Positions 1,146-15,788 of a stretch of 33,783 nt of DNA are shown here, piece by piece. The stretch spans positions 1 to 33,783 of the forward strand of contig JALSJZ010000010.1 of NCBI GenBank assembly GCA_026989135.1. The letters run 5' to 3'. Made by a program: the position numbers and the translations under genes. The notes beneath the pieces are model-generated. The model was not told where the DNA came from, did no database searches, and saw nothing but the letters and a program-made list of their open reading frames with translations. The first letter of the stretch is position 1. Each line of letters starts with the position of its first letter. Source of the DNA: Sedimenticola sp. GTDB taxonomy: Bacteria; Pseudomonadota; Gammaproteobacteria; Chromatiales; Chromatiaceae.

Positions 1146-2330
1146 CTATTCCTTCTTCTTTTTTGGCTGGCCGATATGTATCAGCGCGCCATTGACCTCG
1201 ACCCCTTTTGCCTGGCTGTGGCAGCGCTTGCAGTCAGCAAAGGTGAAAGAGACCTTGCCATGACAGTAGCCACAGTTTTCACCTTTTGACATGCGCACCA
1301 TTTTCACCTTGTTTGTCAGGCTCTCTTTAAAAATGGCAGGATGGCAGGATTCACATTTAATCCAGCTTGAGTGCACATTGTGGCTGAAAAGCACATTTTC
1401 GAGTTTGCTCTTTGAGACAAAAAGGATCTGGTTGTCACGAATCTTCTGCTTATAATCCTCTTCCAGAGATTCGATAGGCTTAAAAACATCCTCTTTTTTT
1501 AGCAACAGCCAGTCAATGAAACCATGTTCATCAATGGGTATGCGGCTGCCAGGCAGTTTGTCAGCGTTCCATTCGGCGCCAACCTGTTTGGCGATGTCGG
1601 CAATGTGCTGGTTATCAATCTGGTTGGCATTATGCAGCCGTTCCGCTTCGGGTTTTCCGGCAATATGGCAGCGGTCGCACTCCTCCTCGTTATTGGCACC
1701 AAAGGCGATGGTTCCATTGTGGCAGACGCCACACTGTTGGCCGGCCTGGATCTTCTCTTTGGTGATGTCATTGCGCCACCGCTTCATTATAAAAATATCC
1801 TGGTGGCAGACAGAGCAGTCATACCAGATGCGGTGAACCCAGTGTGGATAGATGACGGGTGCCAGCCCTGCCTCCTCAAGCTCTTTCTCGTGGGTTTTCA
1901 TGACGAAGTTACCGAGGAACCGCTCCTCTTTTTTCCACTTCATCAGCTCTGCTGTGCGCTCAGCCTCTTTCTTAAGCTCTTTTTTGATGAGTTTGTCTAT
2001 TTTGCGGATGAATTTTTTCCCACCACCGTGATAGTGCTGGTAACCGGATGCCATTGCGCTTGCCGCATCCAACAGGAACATCCTTTTTCCAATAGAGATG
2101 TCATCGTCCATTGCGTCTATGATCAGGCTGAAGATCTCATCAGCCATAATATCCCCGCTTTTGCGGATTAGATTTTCTTGTGCCTTAAACTGGAATGTCT
2201 TGTAGTTATTGATAAATTTTGTGCGAAATTCACTATCTTCTGCGTTGCAGAGAGAGGCGAATATAGAGAGAAGAAGGAGCAGACAACATGAAAAAGTGTA
2301 TTGGATTGGGGATGATGATCTCGTATGCAT
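1146..2330 (-). CDS. periplasmic hexaheme c-type cytochrome, c7-like double triheme (paralogue A)
   Basis: This is a predicted exported 394-residue electron carrier. I place the start at the ATG at 2330, directly before a signal peptide (hydrophobic core about residues 11-26, cleavage near CNA-ED); the reading frame runs further upstream but adds no sensible leader. Six CXXCH haem motifs begin near residues 172, 200, 218, 326, 353 and 367, as two groups of three. Each group opens with a PHxxH or SHxxH element before its first haem, the arrangement of cytochrome c7/c3-type triheme modules. A helical, charged N-terminal extension (about 31-160) contains YHGGGK. The linker carries the GFIDW motif common to all four hexahemes in this window, and the C-terminus is lysine-rich (KKKKE). 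It is a clear full-length paralogue of the 6728-7909 protein but stands apart from the main cluster, beyond the transporter and cupredoxin. It probably moves electrons through the periplasm; the partner is unknown. Confidence 0.9.
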   Translation of the reverse strand: MHTRSSSPIQYTFSCCLLLLLSIFASLCNAEDSEFRTKFINNYKTFQFKAQENLIRKSGDIMADEIFSLIIDAMDDDISIGKRMFLLDAASAMASGYQHYHGGGKKFIRKIDKLIKKELKKEAERTAELMKWKKEERFLGNFVMKTHEKELEEAGLAPVIYPHWVHRIWYDCSVCHQDIFIMKRWRNDITKEKIQAGQQCGVCHNGTIAFGANNEEECDRCHIAGKPEAERLHNANQIDNQHIADIAKQVGAEWNADKLPGSRIPIDEHGFIDWLLLKKEDVFKPIESLEEDYKQKIRDNQILFVSKSKLENVLFSHNVHSSWIKCESCHPAIFKESLTNKVKMVRMSKGENCGYCHGKVSFTFADCKRCHSQAKGVEVNGALIHIGQPKKKKE

Positions 2331-2483
2331 GTTGTTATTCCGGAGCTTTGCATGGGGGCTGGTCTGGATGATACGACAATGCGACCCAGATAGTGCTTTT
2401 GTATGATTATTAAAGACAGTAGCTTTTATCTTTTGTTTGTTGAATAGTAACAAATTGCGAATTGTTGAGAAGAGCTAATTTAT

Positions 2484-4878: not shown

Positions 4879-5223
4879 CTATTTGTCCTTGGCCGTTGGC
4901 AGAACCTCATGGCAATAATCGCACAGATAGAGTGGAAAGGCGTAGGCGCTATTATGGCAGCCGGCATAGCCGCACTGCTGCTCAGTCATGTTTTTTTGCA
5001 TGTTCATGTCGTTGCCCCCTTTTTTGTCGATGAAGATCTTTGGGTGGCAATCGTCACATTCGTACAGCTGCTCATGTAGCTTGTGCGGGTATGTGACAGC
5101 GCCTAAGCCAGCCGCTTTCATGCTCTCTACTTTTGAGTCAAGGATGATGTCAATGGTGTCAATAGCGAATGCGGGTGCGGAGAGTGCGATAAGCAGGAGT
5201 GCAGAGTGTAAAACCTTGGTCAT
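4879..5223 (-). CDS. small periplasmic triheme cytochrome c (single c7-like module)
   Basis: This 114-residue exported cytochrome corresponds to one half of the hexaheme proteins next to it. A signal peptide spans about residues 1-20 (SAPAFA-ID). The opening YPHKLH element supplies distal His ligands. The haem motifs are CDDCH (56-60), CGYAGCH (84-90) and CDYCH (101-105). The middle motif has four residues between the cysteines (CX4CH), whereas the equivalent haem in all the hexahemes is a plain CXXCH. CX4CH sites are known in cytochrome c3-type proteins. It is the last gene of the leftward cluster, 59 bp after the hexaheme stop, with a weak ribosome site. It is probably a small soluble shuttle between larger cytochromes. 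The family call is firm; the partner is inferred. Confidence 0.88.
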   Translation of the reverse strand: MTKVLHSALLLIALSAPAFAIDTIDIILDSKVESMKAAGLGAVTYPHKLHEQLYECDDCHPKIFIDKKGGNDMNMQKNMTEQQCGYAGCHNSAYAFPLYLCDYCHEVLPTAKDK

Positions 5224-5282
5224 TATATTGGTTATCCATTACTAAATATGGTAGTCATTGTATGGGGTTTGCCACTTTTGGG

Positions 5283-6254
5283 CTAGAAGAAATCGCTATC
5301 CACCGGCTCTTGCACTACAGGTTTTTCAATGGGGTCGGCAGGGGTTTGGGGCAGGGGGGCTTTAAGCGGGCGCACCAGGATATTTTCGTCGATGGGTTTG
5401 CCTTTTGGATGGTTATGGCAGCGAACACAATCGCTGATGGGGAAGCCGACCTTGTCATGGCAGCGGGCGCACCATTTCCCTTGGCCAATGCCGATCATGG
5501 TGACGTTGTTGGCTCCCAGCTCATCAATAAACATGGGGCCGCCCTGGGTGTCATGACAGATCCTGCACTCCAGCCAGTAGCTGTGGATGTCATGTGGGAA
5601 GATAACGTCGGGCATGCTCTCTCCCTTGGAGATGAACAGGATGTCGGTATCCCTCAGTTCGTGTGCTGATATATCAACCTTTGGGTCGAGGCTCCAAAGT
5701 GGCTGGACGATCTTTTTTCGTACGGCAGCGGCCCAGTCTACCAGGCCGTATTTGTCCAGTGGCAAGCCGCTTTTTGATAATGCCAAAGGGTGCCAGCCGG
5801 AGCCTATTTCCATGATTTTTGAGTAGGGCTTGGCTATTGATCCTGTTTTCCCAAGCAGGATGTCCCGTTTTTCATCCTCTCTGACAGAGTGTTGAATGAC
5901 GCCAGGGCTCCACCCCTCTTCCAGGGAGTGGCAGCGCTCACACTCCAGAGGTTCCCAGGCCACGAGGCCATCGTGGCAGGCGCCGCACTGCCTTTTCTCT
6001 TCTGTGATGGTTGACATGGAGATCTCATTTGCCCCGGCCTCTATCTTGAAGAGGCTTTCGTGGCAGACACTGCAGCGGAAACGAATGCGATGAAACCAGT
6101 GGGGAAAGACGACATCATCAACCTCGGCTTCACGCATGGCATCAGCTGTTTTATTTAAGACAATATCGCCATATTCAGCGTGGAGGTCAGCTGATAGCAT
6201 AATCAGACAGCAAAACAGAAATTTTGCAGGATGTGATATCAAATGCCTTAACAT
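5283..6254 (-). CDS. periplasmic hexaheme c-type cytochrome (paralogue C)
   Basis: This is a 323-residue exported cytochrome with signal peptide about 1-26 (ADLHA-EY). Six CXXCH motifs start at residues 61, 90, 105, 230, 262 and 276, forming two triheme modules. They are preceded by FPHWFH and FPHDIH, where the His residues are probable distal haem ligands. The inter-module linker (about 110-215) carries the GLVDW motif shared with the other hexahemes. It lacks the long helical N-terminal extension of the 1146-2330 and 6728-7909 proteins and most resembles the 9209-10222 product. It starts 24 bp after the stop of the small hypothetical gene, which supports co-transcription. The likely role is bulk electron transfer or charge storage in the periplasm, as known for multi-triheme c7-type cytochromes of metal-respiring bacteria. 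No substrate site was recognised. Confidence 0.9.
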   Translation of the reverse strand: MLRHLISHPAKFLFCCLIMLSADLHAEYGDIVLNKTADAMREAEVDDVVFPHWFHRIRFRCSVCHESLFKIEAGANEISMSTITEEKRQCGACHDGLVAWEPLECERCHSLEEGWSPGVIQHSVREDEKRDILLGKTGSIAKPYSKIMEIGSGWHPLALSKSGLPLDKYGLVDWAAAVRKKIVQPLWSLDPKVDISAHELRDTDILFISKGESMPDVIFPHDIHSYWLECRICHDTQGGPMFIDELGANNVTMIGIGQGKWCARCHDKVGFPISDCVRCHNHPKGKPIDENILVRPLKAPLPQTPADPIEKPVVQEPVDSDFF

Positions 6255-6278
6255 GTAGAGCGCTGCTTTTGAGATGAG

Positions 6279-6701
6279 TCAGCTACATTCGTTGATTTTC
6301 AGCCGGTAGGTGAGCTTACCGCTCTTGGTTCCTGCTTTTGCTTCACTCTCTTCTTTAACCTCTTCGCCAGAGATGTCTCGTAAGCCATGCACCATTACGC
6401 GGATGTAATCCAGCTCATCCTGGTCTGTATCCTTCCATTCACCAGAGTCAGCCTCGATGGCTTTTAGCTCCGCCATCATCTCGTTCAGGGCCTCTTTTTC
6501 ATCCAGTCGAGTCTCTTTTTGAGCCAGAAGTTTAAGAATGGTCTTTTTGAAAATGACGTTCCTGAACAGAAAAAGGCGCTTCCGAAAAAAGCTGGCATCT
6601 TTGGCCAGGTTTTGATGGATGGAGGCGAGTTGCTGCTTGGTCAGCTGTATCAGTTTCTTATAGAGATGCAGATCTTGTGGATGGTTGATTGTACTGCTCA
6701 T
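6279..6701 (-). CDS. hypothetical protein, charged and helical, within the cytochrome cluster
   Basis: I do not recognise this 140-residue protein. It has no signal peptide, membrane segment, cysteine pair or haem motif. It is rich in Lys, Glu, Leu and Gln and looks all-helical, with a likely coiled-coil stretch around residues 15-90 and an acidic/basic tail. The start ATG at 6701 is supported by GAGG about 8 bp upstream. It lies 26 bp after the hexaheme B stop and 24 bp before the hexaheme C start, so it is almost certainly co-transcribed with exported cytochromes although it appears cytoplasmic. A role in assembly or regulation is conceivable, but nothing in the sequence shows it. Confidence 0.7.
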   Translation of the reverse strand: MSSTINHPQDLHLYKKLIQLTKQQLASIHQNLAKDASFFRKRLFLFRNVIFKKTILKLLAQKETRLDEKEALNEMMAELKAIEADSGEWKDTDQDELDYIRVMVHGLRDISGEEVKEESEAKAGTKSGKLTYRLKINECS

Positions 6702-6727
6702 AATGGTGACCTCGGTTAAGATGAAAT

Positions 6728-7909
6728 TCAGGATTTTTTCTTTTTCTTCTTTGGCTTTCCTATGTGGAGCAGGGCACCGTCGAACATGACGCCTTTCTCC
6801 TGTATATGGCAGCGTGTGCAGTCTGCAAATGTAAAAGAGACCTTGCCGTGGCAGTGGCCGCAGTATTGCCCCTTTGACATTCTGACCATCTTCACATTGT
6901 TGGTCAGCGTTTCGCTGAATACCTCAGGGTGACAGGATGAACATTTGATCCAGCTTGAGTGTACGTCATGGCTAAAGAGGACGTTTTTGGCCTTGCTTTT
7001 GGATTCAAAAAGAATCATGTTGTCCCGAGTCTCAGGTTTATAATTTTCATCCAGCGAGTGTATGGGGTCAAACACCCCGGCTTTTTTCATCGTCAACCAA
7101 TCTATAAACCCAAACCGATCTACAGGAAGACGTCTGCCGGGCAGTCTGCTGGCATCCCATTTGGCACCAACCTTGTCGGCAACTGCGGTGATTGCCCTGT
7201 GATCAATGCGGCTTGCATCGTGTAGTCTGTCCGCCTCTGGTTTGCCGGCAAGATGGCAGCGGTCACAGTTCTCTTCGGTGCTGAAGGCAAGCTCTCCATC
7301 GTGGCATTTTGCGCACTGTTGCCCAGCTTCAAATTTCTCATGGGTGATGTCATTGCGCCACCGTTTCATAATGAAGATATCCTGGTGGCAGACTTTGCAC
7401 TCAAACCAGATGCGGTGCACCCAATGGGGGTAGATCACAGGGGCCAGCTTTTTCTCTACCATCTCTTTTTCGTAGGTTTTCATGACGAAGTTGCCGAGAA
7501 ATCGCTCTTCGTTATTCCACTTCATCAGCTCGGCGTTCTTGGCCTTCTCCTTTTCCAACTCTGCTTTTATGAGTTTGCCAATTTTTCGAAGCAGCCTTTT
7601 TCCGCCACCGTGGTAGTAGTTATAGCCACTGGCCATGGCGTTGGCGGCATCCAGCATGAACATTCTTTGCCCCTGGCTGAGGCCTTCGGCCATGGCATCA
7701 TTGATCAGGCTTTTGATCTCGTCCGGCATGATGGCCTTGCTCTCTTTTATGAGCTCTTCCTGCGCTTTGAACTGAAATGATTTGTAGTTGGTGACAAATT
7801 CAATGCGGAAGGGGGTGTCTTCTGCGTAACTTGCAGTGTAAGGAAAGAGGGTGAAGGGCAGGGTGGCAAAAAGCCACAACAGCAGATGAAGTAACTTCTG
7901 TTGCTTCAT
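6728..7909 (-). CDS. periplasmic hexaheme c-type cytochrome (paralogue B of 1146-2330)
   Basis: This 393-residue exported protein is collinear with the 1146-2330 product along its whole length. The signal peptide is about 1-29 (ASYA-ED); a helical region at about 30-160 carries YYHGGGK and the ERFLGNFVMKT segment. CXXCH motifs begin at residues 171, 199, 215, 323, 350 and 364. PHWVH precedes haem 1 and SHDVH precedes haem 4. The linker contains GFIDW, and the tail ends in a run of lysines. It sits inside the cluster, 73 bp downstream of the duplicated helical protein. Two near-identical hexahemes in one locus suggest a recent duplication and possibly interchangeable carriers. The helical N-terminal domain is unlike a plain c7 module and could be a docking region; that is inference. 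Confidence 0.92.
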   Translation of the reverse strand: MKQQKLLHLLLWLFATLPFTLFPYTASYAEDTPFRIEFVTNYKSFQFKAQEELIKESKAIMPDEIKSLINDAMAEGLSQGQRMFMLDAANAMASGYNYYHGGGKRLLRKIGKLIKAELEKEKAKNAELMKWNNEERFLGNFVMKTYEKEMVEKKLAPVIYPHWVHRIWFECKVCHQDIFIMKRWRNDITHEKFEAGQQCAKCHDGELAFSTEENCDRCHLAGKPEADRLHDASRIDHRAITAVADKVGAKWDASRLPGRRLPVDRFGFIDWLTMKKAGVFDPIHSLDENYKPETRDNMILFESKSKAKNVLFSHDVHSSWIKCSSCHPEVFSETLTNNVKMVRMSKGQYCGHCHGKVSFTFADCTRCHIQEKGVMFDGALLHIGKPKKKKKKS

Positions 7910-7982
7910 CGGGTGAACTCGAGCAGTGAATCATGATTTGTCATGGCTAAATAATCGCTCTTCAATGCTTTGTTGGTGTGAT

Positions 7983-9179
7983 TTATTCGTTGGATCTCTG
8001 CCACTCTCTCGCTGATGCAATGGATTTTTTCAGGAACTCAGTTGAAAGCTGGTAGCCTTTTGATGCCCATTTATATTGCGCTTTTGATTCGGCATCAATA
8101 GCATCGGTGCGTTCAGTTTCTGCGCGTTTAAAAAGCTCTAGGGCAACTGTGCCGCCTGCACCTTCGTGAATCCCCCTCTGCCTTGCCCGTTCAAGATAGG
8201 CATCGCTGGTAATGCGTGCACTGTCCATTTCGTTCTTGTCATTTCTGGCTTCTGTCTCTTTGGCGCGTGCCAGTTTCATTGCGTTTTTCAAGGATTTGGC
8301 AAGTTTTTGCAGTGCCCAGTAGGCCTCTTCGTACTGCTCTTCGTCAATCTTGCTTGCAATGGTGTTGATGCGTTTCTGCCCTCTGGCAAAAAGGGTTATG
8401 GCTTCACTGTTTTCGCTCTCTTTTATTTTTTGGGCGTTTTTGTCTGACAGCTGGCGGGTATCAATATATTTGAACTGCCGGATAACGGATTTTTTTAGTT
8501 TTTCCGGGGTCATTCCTTTGGGGAGGGTTCTTTTCTCCTCTTTGTTGGTTTTGCTGCTGCTATAGCCCTGCTGTTTTGAGGTGGCAATGGCCTTTTTCAA
8601 CAGCTCCATTGAGCTGAGATAGATGGCTGTAGCATCTTTATATTTTTTATTTTTTTCAAGCAGGCTGGCCTCTTTGCGCTTCTCTATAGCCTGTTTGTAT
8701 AGTTTGTGTGCATCTTCACCCCCATTGCCATCATGAATGCTGCGCTGTTTGGCGCGCTCTTGGTAAGCGTCGCTCTTTATCCTTGCGCTGTCCAGATCAT
8801 CCTTTATTTTTTTGGCAGAGAGCCCTTTTGCACGGACAAGTTTTGCGGCACTTCGCAGTGAGTTGCCAAGATCTTTTAGTGTCCAGTAGGCGGCCTCTAT
8901 TTCACCTTTTTCAATCTGTTTGGCAATAAGATCGCGTGTTTTTTTGCTCTCGTTCAGAATGGAGATGGCCTTGTCGTTACCACTGTTCAGGATCTGTTCG
9001 GCACTTTTTCCTGCAAGAAGGCGCTTATCAATATATTTAAGCTGGCGATGGACAGATTTTTCCAGCTTGGCTGGGGTCATTTTCTTGGGAAGGGTTCTCT
9101 CCTGCGCAAAAGCAAGAGGAGCGGTGCATGAGAATAAGAAGAGTGTGATGGTTAAACATCTCAACATTGTATTCATCAT
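7983..9179 (-). CDS. exported protein with two ~175-residue helical repeats, function unknown
   Basis: I do not recognise a named family. The 398-residue product has an N-terminal export signal ending near LAFA-QE; an LFSC sequence just before could alternatively act as a weak lipoprotein site. The rest is an internal tandem duplication: residues about 28-200 and 217-392 share RTLPK-MTP-KL-KSV-RQ-KYID, EAYW-L--L--SL--A-KL-RAK, DSARI-SDAY-ERA-QR-IH-G-GG and a closing LLKK/FLKK-IA segment. The repeats look all-helical, TPR-like in character, with no cysteine or haem motif. I chose the ATG at 9179 because GGAG lies 5-8 bp before it (an adjacent ATG at 9176 is equally possible); the ATG at 9194 has no ribosome site. 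Embedded between two hexaheme genes, it may be a periplasmic scaffold or docking factor for the cytochromes. That role is inference from position. Confidence 0.8.
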   Translation of the reverse strand: MMNTMLRCLTITLFLFSCTAPLAFAQERTLPKKMTPAKLEKSVHRQLKYIDKRLLAGKSAEQILNSGNDKAISILNESKKTRDLIAKQIEKGEIEAAYWTLKDLGNSLRSAAKLVRAKGLSAKKIKDDLDSARIKSDAYQERAKQRSIHDGNGGEDAHKLYKQAIEKRKEASLLEKNKKYKDATAIYLSSMELLKKAIATSKQQGYSSSKTNKEEKRTLPKGMTPEKLKKSVIRQFKYIDTRQLSDKNAQKIKESENSEAITLFARGQKRINTIASKIDEEQYEEAYWALQKLAKSLKNAMKLARAKETEARNDKNEMDSARITSDAYLERARQRGIHEGAGGTVALELFKRAETERTDAIDAESKAQYKWASKGYQLSTEFLKKSIASAREWQRSNE

Positions 9180-9208
9180 GCCCGCTCCAGCCATTTTACA
9201 GTGCCTGC

Positions 9209-10222
9209 TTAGTCAAAGGTGCAGTCATCGCTTGCCTTACATGCGGCAACCTTTTCTCGGTTGTGGCACTTTTCGCAATCCTCCAGTGGAAAGGCAACCT
9301 TGCCATGACACTCGCCACAGTACTTGCCCTTGGCCATCTCCCTCATGGTCATGGGGGTGTCGCCTGCTGTACGCACGAAGCGGTGTGGGTGACAACTTTT
9401 GCAGTTCAACCACCAGGTGTGCAGGGTATGGGGAAAGAGCACTTCAGCAATGGTTTTGCTCTTCACCTTGATCACCATATCTTCGATATCCTCATCACCA
9501 TCAGGGTCGAAGGCATAGTGGACTGGTGATTCATACAGTGGATCATCAGGGTCGATTGAACCTTTTGGCAGCAGCATGCCGTTCTTTGTGATCTTGATCC
9601 AGTCTACGAGACCGTATTTGTCCTTTGGCAGACCCGCCATGGAGAAGGCACGTGGCTGCCAGCCACCGCCCCACTTGAAGGCGTTGCCTGATGGTTTGCG
9701 GCGATCACCTTTACCGGCCATTTTGCCACTGCGTCCAGCAAACAGCAGGTTGGCAGGGTTGGTATCTTCGGGTGGTGGAGCGGCTTCAGCATCCAGCTGT
9801 TCCATCGGGTAGTAGTGGCAGAGTTCGCACTCAAGTGGATCCCATGCAACGGAGCCATCGTGGCACATGCCGCACTGCTCGCCGGCGCTGATCTGATCCA
9901 TATCAACGTTGTTTTCACCTTTGTTGGTTACAAAGGTATCTTCGTGGCAGACTTTGCAGCGAAAACGAATTCGGTGGAACCAGTGTGGAAATACAACGGC
10001 CTCTACTTCACCCTCTTCCATACCTTCTCTGGTTCTGGTCATGATGATATCACCGTATACAAGATTTACGGTCTCATAGTCCATCACGGGATCAGCAGGG
10101 GCGGCTGCCTTGGGTGCAGGCGCAGGCGCTGCTTTTTCAGCAGAATGAACTGCACCGGTAAATAAGAATAGGCCTATAGTCAAAATAACTGACAGTAGCC
10201 CTGAGCTACGTATCTTCAGCAT
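9209..10222 (-). CDS. periplasmic hexaheme c-type cytochrome (paralogue D)
   Basis: This is a 337-residue exported cytochrome. The signal peptide is about 1-28 (VHSA-EK), followed by an Ala/Pro-rich spacer at 29-46 that probably acts as a flexible tether. CXXCH motifs start at residues 89, 117, 132, 274, 302 and 316, two triheme modules preceded by FPHWFH and FPHTLH. The linker is longer than in paralogue C, Pro/Gly-rich, with an acidic patch around 225-250, and contains GLVDW. A strong ribosome site (GGAGG) precedes the ATG at 10222. It follows the monoheme gene after an 85 bp gap that holds a perfect hairpin. The last residues include two non-haem cysteines (AACK and DDCTFD) that could form a disulfide. 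It is the cytochrome closest to the molybdoenzyme genes and a likely first soluble partner; the order of transfer is inferred. Confidence 0.92.
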   Translation of the reverse strand: MLKIRSSGLLSVILTIGLFLFTGAVHSAEKAAPAPAPKAAAPADPVMDYETVNLVYGDIIMTRTREGMEEGEVEAVVFPHWFHRIRFRCKVCHEDTFVTNKGENNVDMDQISAGEQCGMCHDGSVAWDPLECELCHYYPMEQLDAEAAPPPEDTNPANLLFAGRSGKMAGKGDRRKPSGNAFKWGGGWQPRAFSMAGLPKDKYGLVDWIKITKNGMLLPKGSIDPDDPLYESPVHYAFDPDGDEDIEDMVIKVKSKTIAEVLFPHTLHTWWLNCKSCHPHRFVRTAGDTPMTMREMAKGKYCGECHGKVAFPLEDCEKCHNREKVAACKASDDCTFD

Positions 10223-10261
10223 TACGCTACCCTCCCGGATATATATTTATTATGGTGTAAC

Positions 10262-10293
10262 TACTCAAGGGGGCACTGAAGCCCCCTTGAGTA
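10262..10293 (-). terminator. perfect 13 bp hairpin between cytochrome genes
   Basis: TACTCAAGGGGGC (10262-10274) and its exact complement (10281-10293) enclose a 6 nt loop. On the minus strand the hairpin lies just after the monoheme cytochrome stop and before the hexaheme ribosome site. No U-run follows, so it may be a partial terminator, an RNA-processing or an mRNA-stabilising structure that tunes expression inside the operon. The structure is certain; the role is not. Confidence 0.6.
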
Positions 10294-10307
10294 TTAAATG
10301 TGGCTGG

Positions 10308-10745
10308 TTACTTCTCAAAGCCACGGATGATGTGAACCATAATCCAGCCTTCCTCTTCGGAGATCTCCTTGCCTTTTTTTGCGATACCTGCTTTCCAGCC
10401 TTTCATTTCGGTGCCTTTGCTGCCATTCATGGTGAGCCAGTAGAGTTGGCCATCAGTGGCAGGTGATCCGGCTGTCCAGTCAGGTGGCGGTGGCTCCATC
10501 CCTTTGGCACCTGGCCCCTTACCATTGCCTTTGGAGCCATGACACTTTTTGCACTTCTTTTTGTAGGCCTTTTTCATGACCGTTTTGATGGCATCTTCAT
10601 CGGCTTCAACCGGATTGGTCAGAGCAGCTGCATCGGCGGGTACTTTTGCCAGGGTTGCCTCAGAGGTGGCAGCAGCAAACCCAGCGGCCAGACTCATGCT
10701 CAGTGCAACGGTTGCTATGGTAATACTCTTTTTCAATCGCTTCAT
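10308..10745 (-). CDS. exported monoheme cytochrome c (class I-like)
   Basis: This is a 145-residue periplasmic cytochrome with a single CKKCHG haem site. The signal peptide is about 1-26, with cleavage near the Ala-rich AAGFAAA. After the haem motif comes a Gly/Lys-rich loop (GSKGNGKGPGAKGMEPPPPDW), then WLTMNGSKGTEMKGW, where a Met probably serves as sixth haem ligand, as in class I cytochromes. The C-terminal WIMVHIIRGF helix is typical of that fold. I chose the ATG at 10745, which has GGAGG at a 6 bp spacing; an in-frame GTG at 10757 would place that ribosome site inside the gene. It follows the pentaheme gene by 167 bp and precedes hexaheme D. It is a likely small electron shuttle between the membrane-bound pentaheme and other redox partners. 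Confidence 0.88.
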   Translation of the reverse strand: MKRLKKSITIATVALSMSLAAGFAAATSEATLAKVPADAAALTNPVEADEDAIKTVMKKAYKKKCKKCHGSKGNGKGPGAKGMEPPPPDWTAGSPATDGQLYWLTMNGSKGTEMKGWKAGIAKKGKEISEEEGWIMVHIIRGFEK

Positions 10746-10912
10746 AGTTTCCTCCACGGATACTTGATAGTTCGAAGAAATACAAGTTGATAGCGGTATT
10801 TCCCCCGCTGGTTAACACTATATCCAGCACAAGGTATTTATGCAGGATAGAGCTTTAGAGTCGCCCAACTATGGATAAGTTAATGTCCATAGCTGAGCCA
10901 CACATTTTGTGG

Positions 10913-11578
10913 TTACTCCTCTTCCATCTCAGGCCATGCAACGTCTGCATGAACAAGGTTGTAGTGACAGTTGATGCAGGAGAGACCTTTTTCATCCATG
11001 GTTTTGTGTTGGCCAATATCCTGCCACCATATGCTCTCTGTTTTGTGGCATGTCAGACACTTTTCACTCTTGTCTTCAACCATCTGCTGGCGTACTTTTG
11101 CGGCCTGTGCAGGTCGAAGTTCGTTCTCCCACATCTCTATATCACGCAGGCTGCTGGAGACAGCATGGAATGGACTCTCTCCTATGACACCCCGGTTAAG
11201 ATATATAAATTTCCAGTGCAGGATTTCGCGTACGCTATGTGGATCATGACAGCCTACACAGCCTGGGCGTACTCCAAGCTCGTTGTCGTAGTGAGCGGAC
11301 TCGCGGTACTCCTCGTAGGGGTAGGCGTGGCACTCTGCACAGCCAGCGGTTACATCGAAGGCACCGGGTTCGAAGATCTCTTTGGGGTTGTAGTCTTCGA
11401 TGTCTTCGCTTGCGGTTCCCATGGGTTTATATTCGTCAAATTCGACGAATACCTCATGGCAGATGGTGCATGCGCTGATTCGAGTAAACCGGTCGCTGGT
11501 ACAGCTCAGACCTGAAAAGAGCAGAACCAGGACGATGGCACCGATGATGATAAGCACACCTTTGGTTGTTGAGTTCAA
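10913..11578 (-). CDS. membrane-anchored pentaheme cytochrome c, NapC/NrfH-like quinol oxidase type
   Basis: This 221-residue protein has an uncleaved N-terminal membrane anchor (about residues 7-25) followed by five CXXCH motifs: CTICH, CAECH, CVGCH, CLTCH and CINCH. NapC/NrfH proteins usually carry four haems and oxidise membrane quinols, delivering electrons to periplasmic partners. The C-terminal GLSCINCHYNLVH matches the usual last-haem context of that family. I place the start at the TTG at 11578 because GGAGG lies 8 bp before it; a further TTG at 11608 lacks a ribosome site. It follows the molybdoenzyme gene by 42 bp. Inference: it connects the quinone pool, or the NrfD-containing complex, with the periplasmic multihaem cytochromes. 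The family call is good; the fifth haem and direction of flow deserve attention. Confidence 0.87.
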   Translation of the reverse strand: MNSTTKGVLIIIGAIVLVLLFSGLSCTSDRFTRISACTICHEVFVEFDEYKPMGTASEDIEDYNPKEIFEPGAFDVTAGCAECHAYPYEEYRESAHYDNELGVRPGCVGCHDPHSVREILHWKFIYLNRGVIGESPFHAVSSSLRDIEMWENELRPAQAAKVRQQMVEDKSEKCLTCHKTESIWWQDIGQHKTMDEKGLSCINCHYNLVHADVAWPEMEEE

Positions 11579-11620
11579 TCTTCCATCCTCCGTTATCGTA
11601 TCTATCAAGAGAGCAGGGGA

Positions 11621-13972
11621 TTAACCCATTTGTCTCTTATATATGGCTTCATGTTTGGCGTTATCGACTTTGATGTCGCCATATTTGTCGCCCGGTTCTG
11701 AAGGTGAAATCGTCACCACCGTATCATTCCAGGCCTGTGCTCCAGATACTGGATCAATGGCCAGTGGAATGATGTCGTTGGGGTTGATGCCACCATCTCT
11801 CCACCAGAGGTTGGCAGAAATATCCTCATCTATCTGTGATTCCGATGCCAGAGGTGTGGTTGCGGCTGGGTTTGCCTGGGCAACCCGGCCATAGGCTGAA
11901 CGCCCAACAGAGGTAGAGAAGCCGATGACCTGAGGATGAATGCCCTGAGTCAGCCAGGCCTTGGTGACCAGATAGCCAACCTCGCTTTTGACTCTGACCA
12001 GTTCACCGTCACCAATGCCCAGTTTTAACGCAATATCCTTGTTTATCCATAGCGGATTGGAGTGCCACAGTTCGGACAATATCTTCAGGTTGGAGGTGCG
12101 AGAGAGACTCTGATAACTCACTTTGAAGGTGGTTAACACAAACTCGTTTGACTTGATGCCAGAGAGTCGTGGGTTTTCTGTCCAGGTTGGCGCAGAGACC
12201 TCAATCTTGCCAGAGGGGGTGGCAAATCCGACCGACTCGTAGGTCTTGTATGCAACCGGGACAGGCTCGCCATTTTTGACAATCTTGCGTGTGTTGAGGT
12301 CGATCTTGCCATAGGCAGGGTAGACGCCTTTCTTGAGCTTTTTATAGCCTTTTTGCTCCAGACCGGCGGTACCTTCAACCTCTTTTTTGACCCACTCTTT
12401 GGCATTTTTAAAAGCCCAATACTGCTTCATGCCACGACTGCCGTCCGCATCAATGGTTTCGACAATCTTCTTCAGTGTTTCGCGAACGTCCTGTGCCTTG
12501 CCTCGGGATGGAACACCGGGAATGGTCATGGTGGCCCAGGGGAGCAGTGCGGTTGGGCTGCTGCCAACATCGTGGCGCTCGATGGATGTCACATCTGGCA
12601 GGATAATGTCTGCCAACTCAGATGTTTCACTCATAAAGGGGCTGAAATCAACCAGGTAGGGAACCAGTTTTTCATCTTTCAGCAGATCACGCCAGATGCT
12701 TGCCGCTGGAGAGGAGTAGGCTGGGTTGCTCATGTGGTTGAACAGTACTGCGACCTTGCGCTGGCCGCCTTTAACCTCGAATGGAAAGGTGTGGTTCAGC
12801 TGGCGTGAGTTGCTGCCAGATGGGGCGGGGGCGGGTTGAATAGAGGCAATATCGAACTGACGTGGCAGGCAGTTACCGCCTTCGATGTCGATATTCCCGG
12901 TTATGATGGCTAGCAGCTGGCAGGCCGCTTCGGCATCTACGCCACCCTGATGAAAGCTCAGACCATTTTGACTGACGACAGTGGCGGGCTTGTTTTTGGC
13001 AAACTCAATGGCGATGCGTTTGATGTCATTGGCTGAAACACCACTCGCTTTCTGCGCCTTGGCCGGTGTGTAGGCCTTCAGTTGCTGAGCCAGTTCAGCT
13101 GCAGTGGTATTGGTCCAGCTGTTAATGAAGTCAACGTTTGCCAGCCCCCTCTCCATGATCACATTGGCCATAGCCAGTGCGATGAGGCCGTCGCTGCCTG
13201 GGAACACTGGAAGCCATTCATCACTTCTACCGGCGGTGTGCGACATGCGCACCTCAAAGGTGACGAGTTTAAGCCGGTTGTTGACAATGCCATCGGTCAG
13301 CCGTTGAGCCAGTGGCATGGCCGTTTCAATGATGTTGGCACCAAAGTTCAGCACATATTTGGTGTTTTCAAAGTCCGGCAGGGTGCTGTCCACACCAAAG
13401 GTCTTTTTAAGTACCACCTGTTTGGCAACACTGCTGATGGAGGGAACCCGGCTGCGGATCACAGAGCTTGAACCCAGCGTATCCATGAAGCGGATTGTGC
13501 CGCCATCTTTAAAGGCACCTTCATTCAGATGGATGCTGTCCGGGTTGCTGTCCAGTGCCGCTTTTACCTTTGCGGAGACCTCGGCGATCGCCTCATCCCA
13601 ACTGATCTCTGTCCATTGGCCAGAGCCGCGTGGGCCGGAGCGCTTCATGGGGGCGAGGATTCTGTCGGGATCAGAGGCACCAAAGAAGGAGGCCAGCCCT
13701 TTGGAACAGAACTTGCCGCGTGTTGCGATATGGTCGGGGTTGCCCTCGACCTTCTCTATTTTACCGGCTTCTTCATAGCAGAACCCGCCATCGAAATAGG
13801 GACACATGGTGCAAAGATAGGTTGTCTTTTTGCGCTCATGAAAGGTCCTGATTTGATGGAAGTCGGCACCGCCCAGCTTAAGCTCCATGGCTGACCCCAT
13901 GGAGGGGACTGCCACAGCAGTAGTGGCAACTGCGCCTGCTTTCAAGAAGTCTCGTCTGTTGATTTTTGACAT
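11621..13972 (-). CDS. Tat-exported molybdopterin oxidoreductase, catalytic subunit (DMSO reductase superfamily, Psr/Phs-like complex)
   Basis: This is a 783-residue catalytic subunit. The start ATG at 13972 gives a twin-arginine signal (NRRDFLKAG, residues 5-13) and has GGAGA 8 bp upstream; longer in-frame starts overlap the NrfD gene. An N-terminal iron-sulfur segment has Cys54, Cys57, Cys65 and Cys89, followed by SKG. The spacing C-x2-C-x7-C-x23-C differs from the usual C-x2-C-x3-C, and Asp61 sits where the third cysteine is expected. Around residues 176-181 (VPSISS), where polysulfide/thiosulfate reductase relatives have SICH with the Mo-binding Cys, this protein has Ser. The remaining molybdopterin domains and the C-terminal cofactor-binding domain (FVLTTFKVSYQS onward) appear complete. 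It forms an operon with ferredoxin and NrfD subunits, so it should face the periplasm and exchange electrons with quinone. Candidate substrates such as a sulfur, selenium or arsenic compound cannot be separated by eye. Confidence 0.9.
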   Translation of the reverse strand: MSKINRRDFLKAGAVATTAVAVPSMGSAMELKLGGADFHQIRTFHERKKTTYLCTMCPYFDGGFCYEEAGKIEKVEGNPDHIATRGKFCSKGLASFFGASDPDRILAPMKRSGPRGSGQWTEISWDEAIAEVSAKVKAALDSNPDSIHLNEGAFKDGGTIRFMDTLGSSSVIRSRVPSISSVAKQVVLKKTFGVDSTLPDFENTKYVLNFGANIIETAMPLAQRLTDGIVNNRLKLVTFEVRMSHTAGRSDEWLPVFPGSDGLIALAMANVIMERGLANVDFINSWTNTTAAELAQQLKAYTPAKAQKASGVSANDIKRIAIEFAKNKPATVVSQNGLSFHQGGVDAEAACQLLAIITGNIDIEGGNCLPRQFDIASIQPAPAPSGSNSRQLNHTFPFEVKGGQRKVAVLFNHMSNPAYSSPAASIWRDLLKDEKLVPYLVDFSPFMSETSELADIILPDVTSIERHDVGSSPTALLPWATMTIPGVPSRGKAQDVRETLKKIVETIDADGSRGMKQYWAFKNAKEWVKKEVEGTAGLEQKGYKKLKKGVYPAYGKIDLNTRKIVKNGEPVPVAYKTYESVGFATPSGKIEVSAPTWTENPRLSGIKSNEFVLTTFKVSYQSLSRTSNLKILSELWHSNPLWINKDIALKLGIGDGELVRVKSEVGYLVTKAWLTQGIHPQVIGFSTSVGRSAYGRVAQANPAATTPLASESQIDEDISANLWWRDGGINPNDIIPLAIDPVSGAQAWNDTVVTISPSEPGDKYGDIKVDNAKHEAIYKRQMG

Positions 13973-13988
13973 TGTTCTATTCTCCAAA

Positions 13989-14894
13989 TCAATAGAAGGA
14001 CTGTATGTATTGACCGCCCATAACCCACCAGACCCGCATGCCGTATACACCAACAGCGACTAGAAAGGCGGCACCATAGACGCCAATCCGTGTGCGCTTG
14101 AGTGGTGTTACCAGCAGGATGAGTGGGATAAGCAGGCCGATAACGATCTCCAGCCAGATGTAAGGTGTGAAGAAGATCTCCATCAACACCGTACCGTGGG
14201 CGAGGTATTCGCTTGCCGTGCCGTACTGAGTCTGCATGAAGTCAAGAAAGAGCAGGAAGAAGTCAAATACGATGCCGTACATCATATATTGCGCCATCTC
14301 CTCCATGAGTTCCCACTTGATCCTCTTCTCTGGCCGCGTGAACTGGTTCTGAATCCACAGCACCAGAATCATCAAACCAATGCCCGATATAAAAGCACCT
14401 GTAAGAAACAACAGTGGTGCGAGCGGGGTATGGTTGAGGTATCGGCCAGGGTTTAGCTCCATAACAACACCGGTATACCAGTGCGTTGATAGGGCGAGAA
14501 CAATGGCGATAATGCCGGTTATCTTTGCCCACTTCTGGTTGTTTTTAATGACAAAGTAGGTGTAGACAAACATCGAGAGTGGGTAGCTCAGGATCAGCAA
14601 AGTACCCCAGGACATGGGGGCTGTGCCGTGCCAATATCCCGGTAACATGAGGTAGATGAAGCGGAATGGTTTGCCCAGATCCCAGATCAGCAGAACCGGG
14701 ACGATCATCAACATGACGATAGCCAGTATGGATGCAGTCAGAGCCAGTGGTTTGTAGCGTTTGATGCCGAATACCCAGCCGAATGCGGAGAGCACAAATG
14801 AACCGGCACTGGCGCCAACAAGCCAGAAGTAGATGGTAATAGGCGTCCCCCACGGATTGTGGTGGACGGCGTTATACGTAATGATGGTTTCCAT
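13989..14894 (-). CDS. NrfD/PsrC-type membrane subunit, quinone-interacting
   Basis: This 301-residue integral membrane protein has eight hydrophobic segments (near residues 20-43, 50-75, 94-116, 121-145, 154-180, 206-228, 242-265 and 273-296), as in the NrfD/PsrC family. WDLGKPFRF after the second segment is a family hallmark; the VVMELNPGR segment lies near the expected quinone region. It would anchor the ferredoxin and molybdenum subunits and exchange electrons with menaquinone or ubiquinone. It sits 15 bp after the ferredoxin gene and 16 bp before the catalytic gene, giving the order FeS-NrfD-Mo. No haem ligands are expected. The call is confident; energy coupling (proton transfer) is uncertain for this family. 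Confidence 0.92.
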   Translation of the reverse strand: METIITYNAVHHNPWGTPITIYFWLVGASAGSFVLSAFGWVFGIKRYKPLALTASILAIVMLMIVPVLLIWDLGKPFRFIYLMLPGYWHGTAPMSWGTLLILSYPLSMFVYTYFVIKNNQKWAKITGIIAIVLALSTHWYTGVVMELNPGRYLNHTPLAPLLFLTGAFISGIGLMILVLWIQNQFTRPEKRIKWELMEEMAQYMMYGIVFDFFLLFLDFMQTQYGTASEYLAHGTVLMEIFFTPYIWLEIVIGLLIPLILLVTPLKRTRIGVYGAAFLVAVGVYGMRVWWVMGGQYIQSFY

Positions 14895-14909
14895 TTGTAG
14901 TATCCCCCC

Positions 14910-15788
14910 TTATGCAAACAGCAGCTTTTTGAGCGCTGCGACCACATCGAAAAATTTATGTGGTATCGACGCCAGGAAGTCGGACATGTTTTTGCCTACA
15001 TGGTACATAGTGTTCTCACCCTCAACGATATCTCCAAAAGCATCGCCGTGATGATTGCGCTTGTAGGTGTTGAACTCCTCCTTCTGCTGTGCTGTACGGT
15101 GTTTGTAGTTGTGGGGCTCATCCATAATCTCCCAATCACCACCGATGTAGTAGACGGATGGACTTGTTCCCAGTTCAGGTTTGAGTACCGTCAGCTTCTC
15201 TCTGGCGACAAGTCTTGCTACTTCGCTCTTGGGGTCGTTAACATCACCAAATATGCGAGCACCGCCTACGCAGGCCTGTACACATGCAGGTACCAGCCCC
15301 TTCTTGACCCGGTGGATACAGAAGGTGCATTTATCGACAACCAGTACAGGCAGGTTGTTATTGGTGCGTTTGGCAGGGAGGAAATGTCTGGCGTTATACG
15401 GGCATGCAATGACGCAGGTTCGACACCCAATGCAGCGGTTATAGCGTTGCAGCACAAAGCCCTCTTCATGTTTGAAGGTGGCCTGTGTGGGGCAGTTGCG
15501 TACGCAGATGGGGTAGTCGCAGTGGTTGCATAGGCGCGGCATAAAGATGCGCCTGCTATCGGGATACCTTCCCTTGTCTGCAACCATAACCCAGGTTCGC
15601 CAGACACCCAGAGGGACGCCATATTCGGCTTTACAAGCTACTACACAGGACATGCAGCCAATGCATTTCCTGAGGTCGATGACCATTGAGTAGCGCCTTT
15701 TGCCGGGGATACCCTTTGTTCCCGGCGTTTGAGATCCATACTCGCGTAGAGCGTGAGCAGGACTCTTTTGTTTGCTTTCTGTTGTCAT
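14910..15788 (-). CDS. four-[4Fe-4S] ferredoxin-type electron transfer subunit (PsrB/NrfC-like)
   Basis: This is a 292-residue iron-sulfur subunit. Its cysteine blocks are CIGCMSCVVAC (about residues 42-52), CNHCDYPICVRNC, CIGCRTCVIAC and CTFC followed by a CVQAC block, the set that binds four [4Fe-4S] clusters in DMSO-reductase-family complexes. It has no signal peptide of its own; such subunits are normally exported with the Tat-tagged catalytic partner. A C-terminal extension of about 70 residues after the last cluster (HNYKHRTAQQ onward) is longer than a minimal PsrB and may contact NrfD. The start ATG at 15788 has GGGAG 6 bp upstream and it is the first gene of the leftward operon. It passes electrons between the NrfD quinone site and the molybdenum subunit. 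Confidence 0.93.
   Translation of the reverse strand: MTTESKQKSPAHALREYGSQTPGTKGIPGKRRYSMVIDLRKCIGCMSCVVACKAEYGVPLGVWRTWVMVADKGRYPDSRRIFMPRLCNHCDYPICVRNCPTQATFKHEEGFVLQRYNRCIGCRTCVIACPYNARHFLPAKRTNNNLPVLVVDKCTFCIHRVKKGLVPACVQACVGGARIFGDVNDPKSEVARLVAREKLTVLKPELGTSPSVYYIGGDWEIMDEPHNYKHRTAQQKEEFNTYKRNHHGDAFGDIVEGENTMYHVGKNMSDFLASIPHKFFDVVAALKKLLFA

Follow-up and report, generated by a model that had tools for sequence, protein, structure and literature searches.

An eleven-gene locus and its conserved core

Eleven genes occupy positions 4879-15788 of the window, by which we mean the whole stretch of 33,783 nt analysed here (contig JALSJZ010000010.1 of a Sedimenticola genome), and all of them lie on its minus strand (Table 1). 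They encode an iron-sulfur (FeS) subunit, an NrfD-type membrane subunit, a large subunit resembling molybdenum (Mo) oxidoreductases, a pentahaem membrane cytochrome, and a series of smaller cytochromes interspersed with two other proteins. A preliminary description of this DNA, made from the sequence alone, had seen in them a quinone-linked chain joining a periplasmic Mo active site to a pool of cytochromes. The quinone-linked cytochrome chain is well supported, as the NrfD/FeS module, the NapC-like cytochrome and the c7 carriers recur as a unit in related genomes, but a working Mo site is not. We consider it probable that the four-gene core is a periplasm-facing, Mo-free quinol:cytochrome c oxidoreductase, similar in operation to Qrc or alternative complex III but of separate origin, and that its large subunit descends from a reductase of the Cys-ligated Srd/Ttr/Psr kind, has lost Mo catalysis and now serves as scaffold and electron relay. 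The sequence basis of this reading is the loss of the ligand and of other positions, the failure to find a TorD gene, the retention of FeS and haem ligands, a shift in conservation, and linkage to c7 or cytochrome cd1 genes.

Table 1. Genes and sites of the locus, in coordinates of the whole window
Feature	Position	Strand	Family match or basis
FeS subunit, NrfC/TtrB type, four-cluster ferredoxin, 292 aa	14910..15788	-	NCBIfam TtrB 217 bits, below cut-off 416
NrfD/PsrC-type membrane subunit, 301 aa, quinone module	13989..14894	-	NCBIfam DsrP and NrfD matches, both under cut-off
Pseudo-Mo subunit (molybdopterin-oxidoreductase-like, Tat signal, without Mo-ligand Cys), 783 aa	11621..13972	-	PF00384, PF10518
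Ser207 codon (ORF numbering; Ser180 from likely start), position of relatives' Mo-ligand Cys	13433..13435	-	alignments
NapC/NirT-type membrane pentahaem cytochrome, 231 aa	10913..11608	-	PF03264 89.7 bits, cut-off 24.1
Monohaem class I cytochrome c, signal-like N-terminus	10308..10757	-	PF00034 27 bits, cut-off 21.3
c7-type hexahaem cytochrome, two trihaem modules	9209..10222	-	TIGR04257 129 bits
All-helical 403-aa protein, signal-like N-terminus	7983..9194	-	tandem duplicate of ~200-aa unit
c7-type hexahaem cytochrome, long N-terminal region	6728..7909	-	TIGR04257 123 bits
140-aa protein	6279..6701	-	no Pfam or NCBIfam match
c7-type hexahaem cytochrome	5283..6254	-	TIGR04257 102.5 bits
c7-type trihaem cytochrome (two CXXCH, one CX4CH)	4879..5223	-	TIGR04257 55 bits
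Detached c7-type hexahaem, resembles 6728-7909	1146..2453	-	PF14522 89.5 bits

The one-strand arrangement first described was confirmed, and family scans agree with the labels given to the genes. Intergenic gaps measure 12-85 bp, with the single exception of 155 bp before the monohaem gene. The 33 haem sites announced earlier are also recovered (32 CXXCH and one CX4CH), provided that the detached hexahaem and the CX4CH of the smallest cytochrome are counted; this CX4CH is retained in 5 aligned homologues. All four c7 proteins of the block exceed the cut-offs of both PF14522 and TIGR04257 and belong to the c7 family, as does, in a scan with Pfam only, the detached one. The pentahaem cytochrome belongs to the NapC/NirT family and has a hydrophobic N-terminal stretch, a membrane anchor.

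Comparison of gene neighbourhoods across genomes found the same eleven-gene order in four further loci (L026, L029, L030 and L032), so the arrangement is not due to chance. Two others lack one of the eleven genes among those picked, owing to a contig end or to a gene that was not picked (L027, L028), and two end early (L031, L071). Flanking genes differ between the genera read, which makes the eleven genes the unit. The surveys behind these loci are samples, not totals. In a survey of the order (195 genomes), 53 genomes gave any match to the Mo-type subunit at E<=1e-30 and 8, the window's own included, matched at 69% identity or more, among them 5 of the 6 listed genomes of the window's genus; the nearest subunits are found in D96SM.bin.13 (98%; a metagenome genome that was placed in the window's genus) and S141_33 (94%; Gammaproteobacteria, metagenome), and two Sedimenticola records are 69-71% identical. 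A sample of the class (369 genomes) added two matches at E<=1e-200, both from one genus of family f137, and 48 genomes from the class of a Magnetococcales locus gave ten at E<=1e-150. With the Chromatiales locus L071, the clade amounts to 21 distinct loci, window included. In the clade loci read (contig ends truncate two of them), the constant part is the core FeS-NrfD-Mo-type subunit-pentahaem. In addition, c7 genes lie beside the core in 8/8 distinct clade loci other than the window and outside the Magnetococcales class and f137 (13 c7-type rows, less five that repeat a locus). In the 26 sister-group loci read, no c7 gene adjoins the Mo gene. The complex is real and conserved, and it is probably a variant of the Mo-free NrfD complexes.

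The Mo-ligand site of the large subunit

The pseudo-Mo subunit, whose mechanical reading frame opens at 14053 and whose likely start is the ATG at 13972, scores 93.1 bits against PF00384 (cut-off 24), and its predicted fold matches ArrA and PsrA. At the column of the Mo-ligand cysteine, none of the 19 clade members that cover the site has Cys (Gly in 11, Ser in 7, Asn in 1; L173 and L195 lack the N-terminal half and were excluded), whereas Cys is present in all 26 sister-group sequences (C43, C36 and L055) and in all 14 chosen Psr-, Arr- and Ttr-type sequences. Over the whole set of 110 Mo-like sequences it is found in 61, the rest being clade members, Qrc-type, distant or partial. Such variation is hard to reconcile with a protein ligand, and two extra residues stand directly ahead of the site in the clade. 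The alignments thus show the Mo ligand to be lost, and suggest that Mo itself is absent from the subunit.

Other positions have changed along with it. In C43 and C36, 153 columns reach an identity of 95% or more, and at 24 of them, including the next four, most clade members have another residue; in a comparison of 12 clade and 38 comparator sequences, chosen by hand (L062 and L063 of C43 were left out and entered the ligand count later), His201 is replaced by Ser in 12/12, Arg363 by Asn in 12/12, Arg510 by Thr or Ser in 12/12 and Arg180 by Ala in 11/12. Conservation and nearness to the site suggest that these four residues are catalytic in the relatives, and in the PsrA alignment a substrate arginine of PsrA adjoins position 363. 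The neighbourhood differs too: 15/16 C43 and 9/10 C36 sister loci have a TorD-type gene next to the Mo gene, but a BLAST search with three sister-group references found none beside the core in 20 distinct clade loci (25 rows). Four TorD-type proteins of this survey were confirmed as PF02613, and the only PF02613 match of the window genome sits in a cluster with a NarG-size gene. Given a ligand lost in 19/19 sequences, changes at other conserved positions and the failure to find TorD next to the core, the periplasmic Mo active site of the preliminary description is not supported.

Several observations weigh against a Mo-free subunit. The fold is retained, as are the cysteines of the first cluster and, out of 65 widely conserved columns, 87%, so a pterin may still be bound. 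As to the first cluster, Cys81, Cys84 and Cys116 are kept in the clade, and most members share with many Cys-type relatives an Asp at the third ligand position. A Cys stands five residues ahead of the ligand column in L192-L194, and directly behind it in L188; the AlphaFold model is uninformative on this loop, with pLDDT under 50 at residues 176-180. Ser, found in seven members, is a Mo ligand in other families (PMC7331816), and AioA and IdrA hold Mo without any protein ligand (PMC10100899). Finally, a TorD search with three related references could miss a distant chaperone. The retained fold and conserved columns, together with the Tat signal, could fit a still-active molybdo- or tungstoenzyme whose metal is held by two pterins alone, after the precedent of AioA and IdrA (PMC10100899), with the cytochromes as its electron partners. 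We find this unlikely, given that the His and Arg positions of Cys-type relatives are replaced, that no TorD gene was found and that NrfD and FeS subunits are better conserved than the Mo-like one; moreover, the arsenite oxidase large-subunit model (TIGR02693) gives 29.9 bits against a cut-off of 359, which argues against AioA/IdrA membership.

Still less can be said for a Mo-dependent respiratory enzyme acting on sulfur or metalloid compounds and served by the cytochrome pool, as first proposed. The relatives do group with Cys-type reductases, and the best NCBIfam model for the subunit is PhsA (258.9 bits), but this is far from the cut-off of 694, and TtrA (94.6 against 1750) and ArrA (107.8 against 1600) do no better. 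The lost ligand and the missing TorD gene led us to drop this as the leading reading; the gene neighbours differ from those of Cys-type sister loci, the closest link outside the c7-type loci is to cytochrome cd1, and we regard sulfur or metalloid chemistry at this subunit as very improbable.

The retained quinone module and the origin of the complex

The FeS and haem ligands of the core have been kept. All 16 cysteines of the window's FeS subunit are invariant in 19/19 clade sequences and the five CXXCH of the pentahaem cytochrome in 21/21; NrfD has 139 invariant residues across 19 clade sequences, and its Tyr22 is retained in 19/19 clade and 9/9 sister sequences. A simple hydropathy scan of this NrfD gives 7 peaks, against the 8-10 helices of the family, and its family matches stay under the equivalog cut-offs; its FeS partner is present. 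Pairwise identities (computed without the window, L026 and L027, which are near-copies, two partial loci, and L153, which lacks the FeS protein) point the same way. For Mo-type subunits that are 0.50-0.60 identical, the accompanying NrfD proteins reach 0.73 in the clade (39 pairs) and 0.32 in C43 (27 pairs); all of these C43 pairs span the same two subclades, between which NrfD may have been swapped. In the 0.75-0.85 bin, C43 NrfD (0.69, 31 pairs) remains below its own Mo subunit (0.81). Within the clade, NrfD is the more conserved of the two in the three lower bins, and the lone pair at 0.83 is reversed. The strongest conservation has therefore shifted to NrfD and FeS, which fits a complex whose working part is the quinone module.

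In a quick-search tree of Mo-type subunits, built without AioA, ActB and characterised SrdA or PsrA, the nine clade rows share a single branch (SH-aLRT 100), which joins C43 with support 99. Support for C43 as a separate branch is only 77, and the clade may therefore be nested within it. The Psr/Phs-, Arr-, Ttr- and Qrc-type rows are placed elsewhere. The PhsA reference was taken from an E. coli plasmid record, since a PhsA family search of 150 phylum genomes at E<=1e-100 returned no match, controls included; for TtrA, searching 150 genomes yielded a single strong match, below the cut-off, and this served as TtrA-type. The label Srd-like that we give to the sister groups comes from what we take to be the Srd gene order. 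It also follows the literature, which groups TtrA with SrdA (PMC7331816, PMC10100899), no characterised SrdA having been compared here. ActB is placed near Arr in the literature (PMC10100899).

Qrc-type rows lack the ligand cysteine too (0/12). However, joining them with the clade in one group was rejected (p-AU 1.3e-49; 28 hand-chosen rows, LG+G4), and the loss of the ligand in the clade therefore looks separate from that of QrcB. The QrcB model gives the pseudo-Mo subunit 157.9 bits against a cut-off of 440, when a Desulfosarcina protein scores 551; on score and tree, Qrc membership was rejected. Few respiratory complexes are known in which the scaffold of a molybdenum enzyme has become a pure electron conduit and, if the present one is separate from QrcB, the path from one to the other would look repeatable. 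Apart from this, many gammaproteobacterial loci (L075-L104, for instance L076 of Bacterium MnTg04 and L101 of Biocath_Gamma_008) carry genes for a pentahaem cytochrome, a Cys-less Mo-like subunit and an FeS protein, and those entered in the tree group with QrcB, though Qrc was described from sulfate reducers.

The likeness to QrcABCD is nevertheless clear, since it too combines a Mo-like subunit without cofactor with FeS, NrfD-type and membrane multihaem subunits, and moves electrons between periplasmic cytochrome and quinone (PMC6303296, PMC13059093). The present complex differs in its separate clade, in having a NapC-type pentahaem instead of QrcA, in its linkage to c7 or cd1 genes and in the 7 hydropathy peaks of its 301-aa NrfD, where QrcD has 10 helices. 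Alternative complex III conveys electrons from quinol to periplasmic cytochrome c through a Mo-free Mo-like protein, FeS clusters, NrfD-type subunits and a multihaem (PMC6303296, PMC8076601), but its ActB is a fusion of Mo-like and FeS parts and its NrfD-type subunits are two, whereas our locus has a separate FeS gene and a single NrfD-type gene; the clusters like alternative complex III reported near nar genes are a different gene set (PMC10732223). SrdBCA, TtrBCA and PsrABC types have homologous subunits, and the FeS-NrfD-Mo order is common to the C43 sister loci, but here the Mo-ligand Cys is lost, no TorD gene was found, and the pentahaem and other cytochromes are added. As in NapC/NirT quinol dehydrogenases the pentahaem belongs to PF03264, but it is accompanied by the NrfD/FeS/Mo-like module. 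No paper listed in searches of an open-access library presents this complex in its title or at the start of its abstract, and the excerpt of PMC10734462 held nothing bearing on the locus.

Electron partners and the direction of flow

By analogy with Qrc and alternative complex III, quinol would be oxidised at NrfD, on the periplasmic side. Electrons might then pass from NrfD to the FeS subunit, perhaps also to the cluster of the Mo-like subunit, and on to the pentahaem cytochrome, which would deliver them to the monohaem cytochrome and the c7 hexahaems, whence they could spread in the periplasm to reductases or outward.

The relatives from the Magnetococcales class and f137 point to a possible destination. 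In 11 of their 12 loci the core has a cytochrome cd1 gene at a distance of 83-1949 bp (10 of these share its strand), and all 11 proteins pass PF02239; in the twelfth (L189), whose contig stops 456 bp beyond one side of the core, ~6.7 kb on the other side contain no cd1 gene. Homologues of the window's monohaem cytochrome, 32-39% identical to it, are also near the core in these loci and mostly adjoin cd1, and siroheme decarboxylase-type genes follow nearby in L197. Genes of that type are expected for d1 haem. The likely acceptor in these relatives is cytochrome cd1, presumably a nitrite reductase. Two nirS genes are mentioned in a study of a magnetotactic coccus, a text in which the terms NrfD and polysulfide reductase do not appear (PMC6783814).

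Three further points count against our reading. Three cd1 proteins were tested against NCBIfam and no match called them nitrite reductases; this function is deduced from the D1 domain and the neighbours. The cd1 link reaches the window through its relatives only, as its genome has its cd1 matches on other contigs (C79, C186 and C74); none of the 8 distinct c7-type loci has cd1 beside the core. And a bc1-type cytochrome b C-terminal domain was matched in 14/14 clade genomes tested (weakly in G107), so the complex is not the sole route and would be an added branch.

The same Mo-free complex could also run in reverse, with cytochromes charged by a periplasmic or external donor reducing quinone, as Qrc does with cytochrome c3. 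The composition of Qrc, a quinone reductase with a cofactor-less Mo-like subunit, an NrfD-type subunit, FeS and a multihaem (PMC6303296, PMC13059093), lends this some plausibility, and so do the five further c7 proteins that the window genome encodes outside the window. We hold it to be a minority possibility, less improbable than an active Mo enzyme: the cd1 linkage points to quinol oxidation, and no MtrB/PioB-type porin, the one porin family sought, was matched in the window genome, a soft absence given a single weak match among the control genomes. Extracellular electron transfer by the cytochrome pool, raised in the preliminary description, is neither shown nor excluded.

We lean, with somewhat less assurance than for the complex itself, towards a separate class of Mo-free quinol:cytochrome c oxidoreductases, independent of Qrc and derived from a Cys-type reductase. 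Its periplasmic electron sinks would differ: the window's family and a relative from the Chromatiales would use networks of c7 hexahaems, and the Magnetococcales class and one family of Gammaproteobacteria cd1 nitrite reductase. If true, the core would mark a route of quinol oxidation next to bc1, one that may supply nitrite reduction in the Magnetococcales class and in sediment bacteria, and the annotation "molybdopterin oxidoreductase" could mislead metabolic reconstructions.

Two other clusters of the window genome deserve mention. On contig C121 (12839-19335, L184) a second c7 cluster has a hexahaem and a trihaem cytochrome with apparent membrane helices flanking a cytochrome b561-type protein (PF01292), and continues with three c7 proteins of the trihaem kind and a hexahaem that shares 50% identity with the detached one; on contig C186 (L206, 9826-14500) the gene that follows cd1 encodes a protein of 939 aa in which NapC/NirT and ethylbenzene-dehydrogenase-type domains are combined.

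As for the two non-haem proteins of the block, the 403-aa one was modelled with pLDDT 85.8 and pTM 0.37, and a structure search gave no PDB match at E<=0.001; alignment finds its ~200-aa unit in single copy in L032 and L071. Homologues of the 140-aa protein follow the core in both f137 loci (47% and 49% identity; L171 and L173). A homologue of the detached hexahaem, 87% identical, adjoins an LpdA homologue in L028. A promoter scan of the window gave no excess (11 versus a shuffled mean of 15.4), and terminator-like sites number 35 versus 18.7, but are mostly intragenic and on the plus strand. Among the neighbours, a 16-pair stem-loop at 2625-2663, which scans as a terminator on both strands, lies between the detached hexahaem and the gene of a small cupredoxin (PF00127, 2916-3272) that adjoins a sodium:sulfate-symporter-type gene (PF00939, 3395-4873), and a trypsin-like protease gene (PF13365, 16124-16894) stands upstream of the FeS gene, likewise in L026 and L027.

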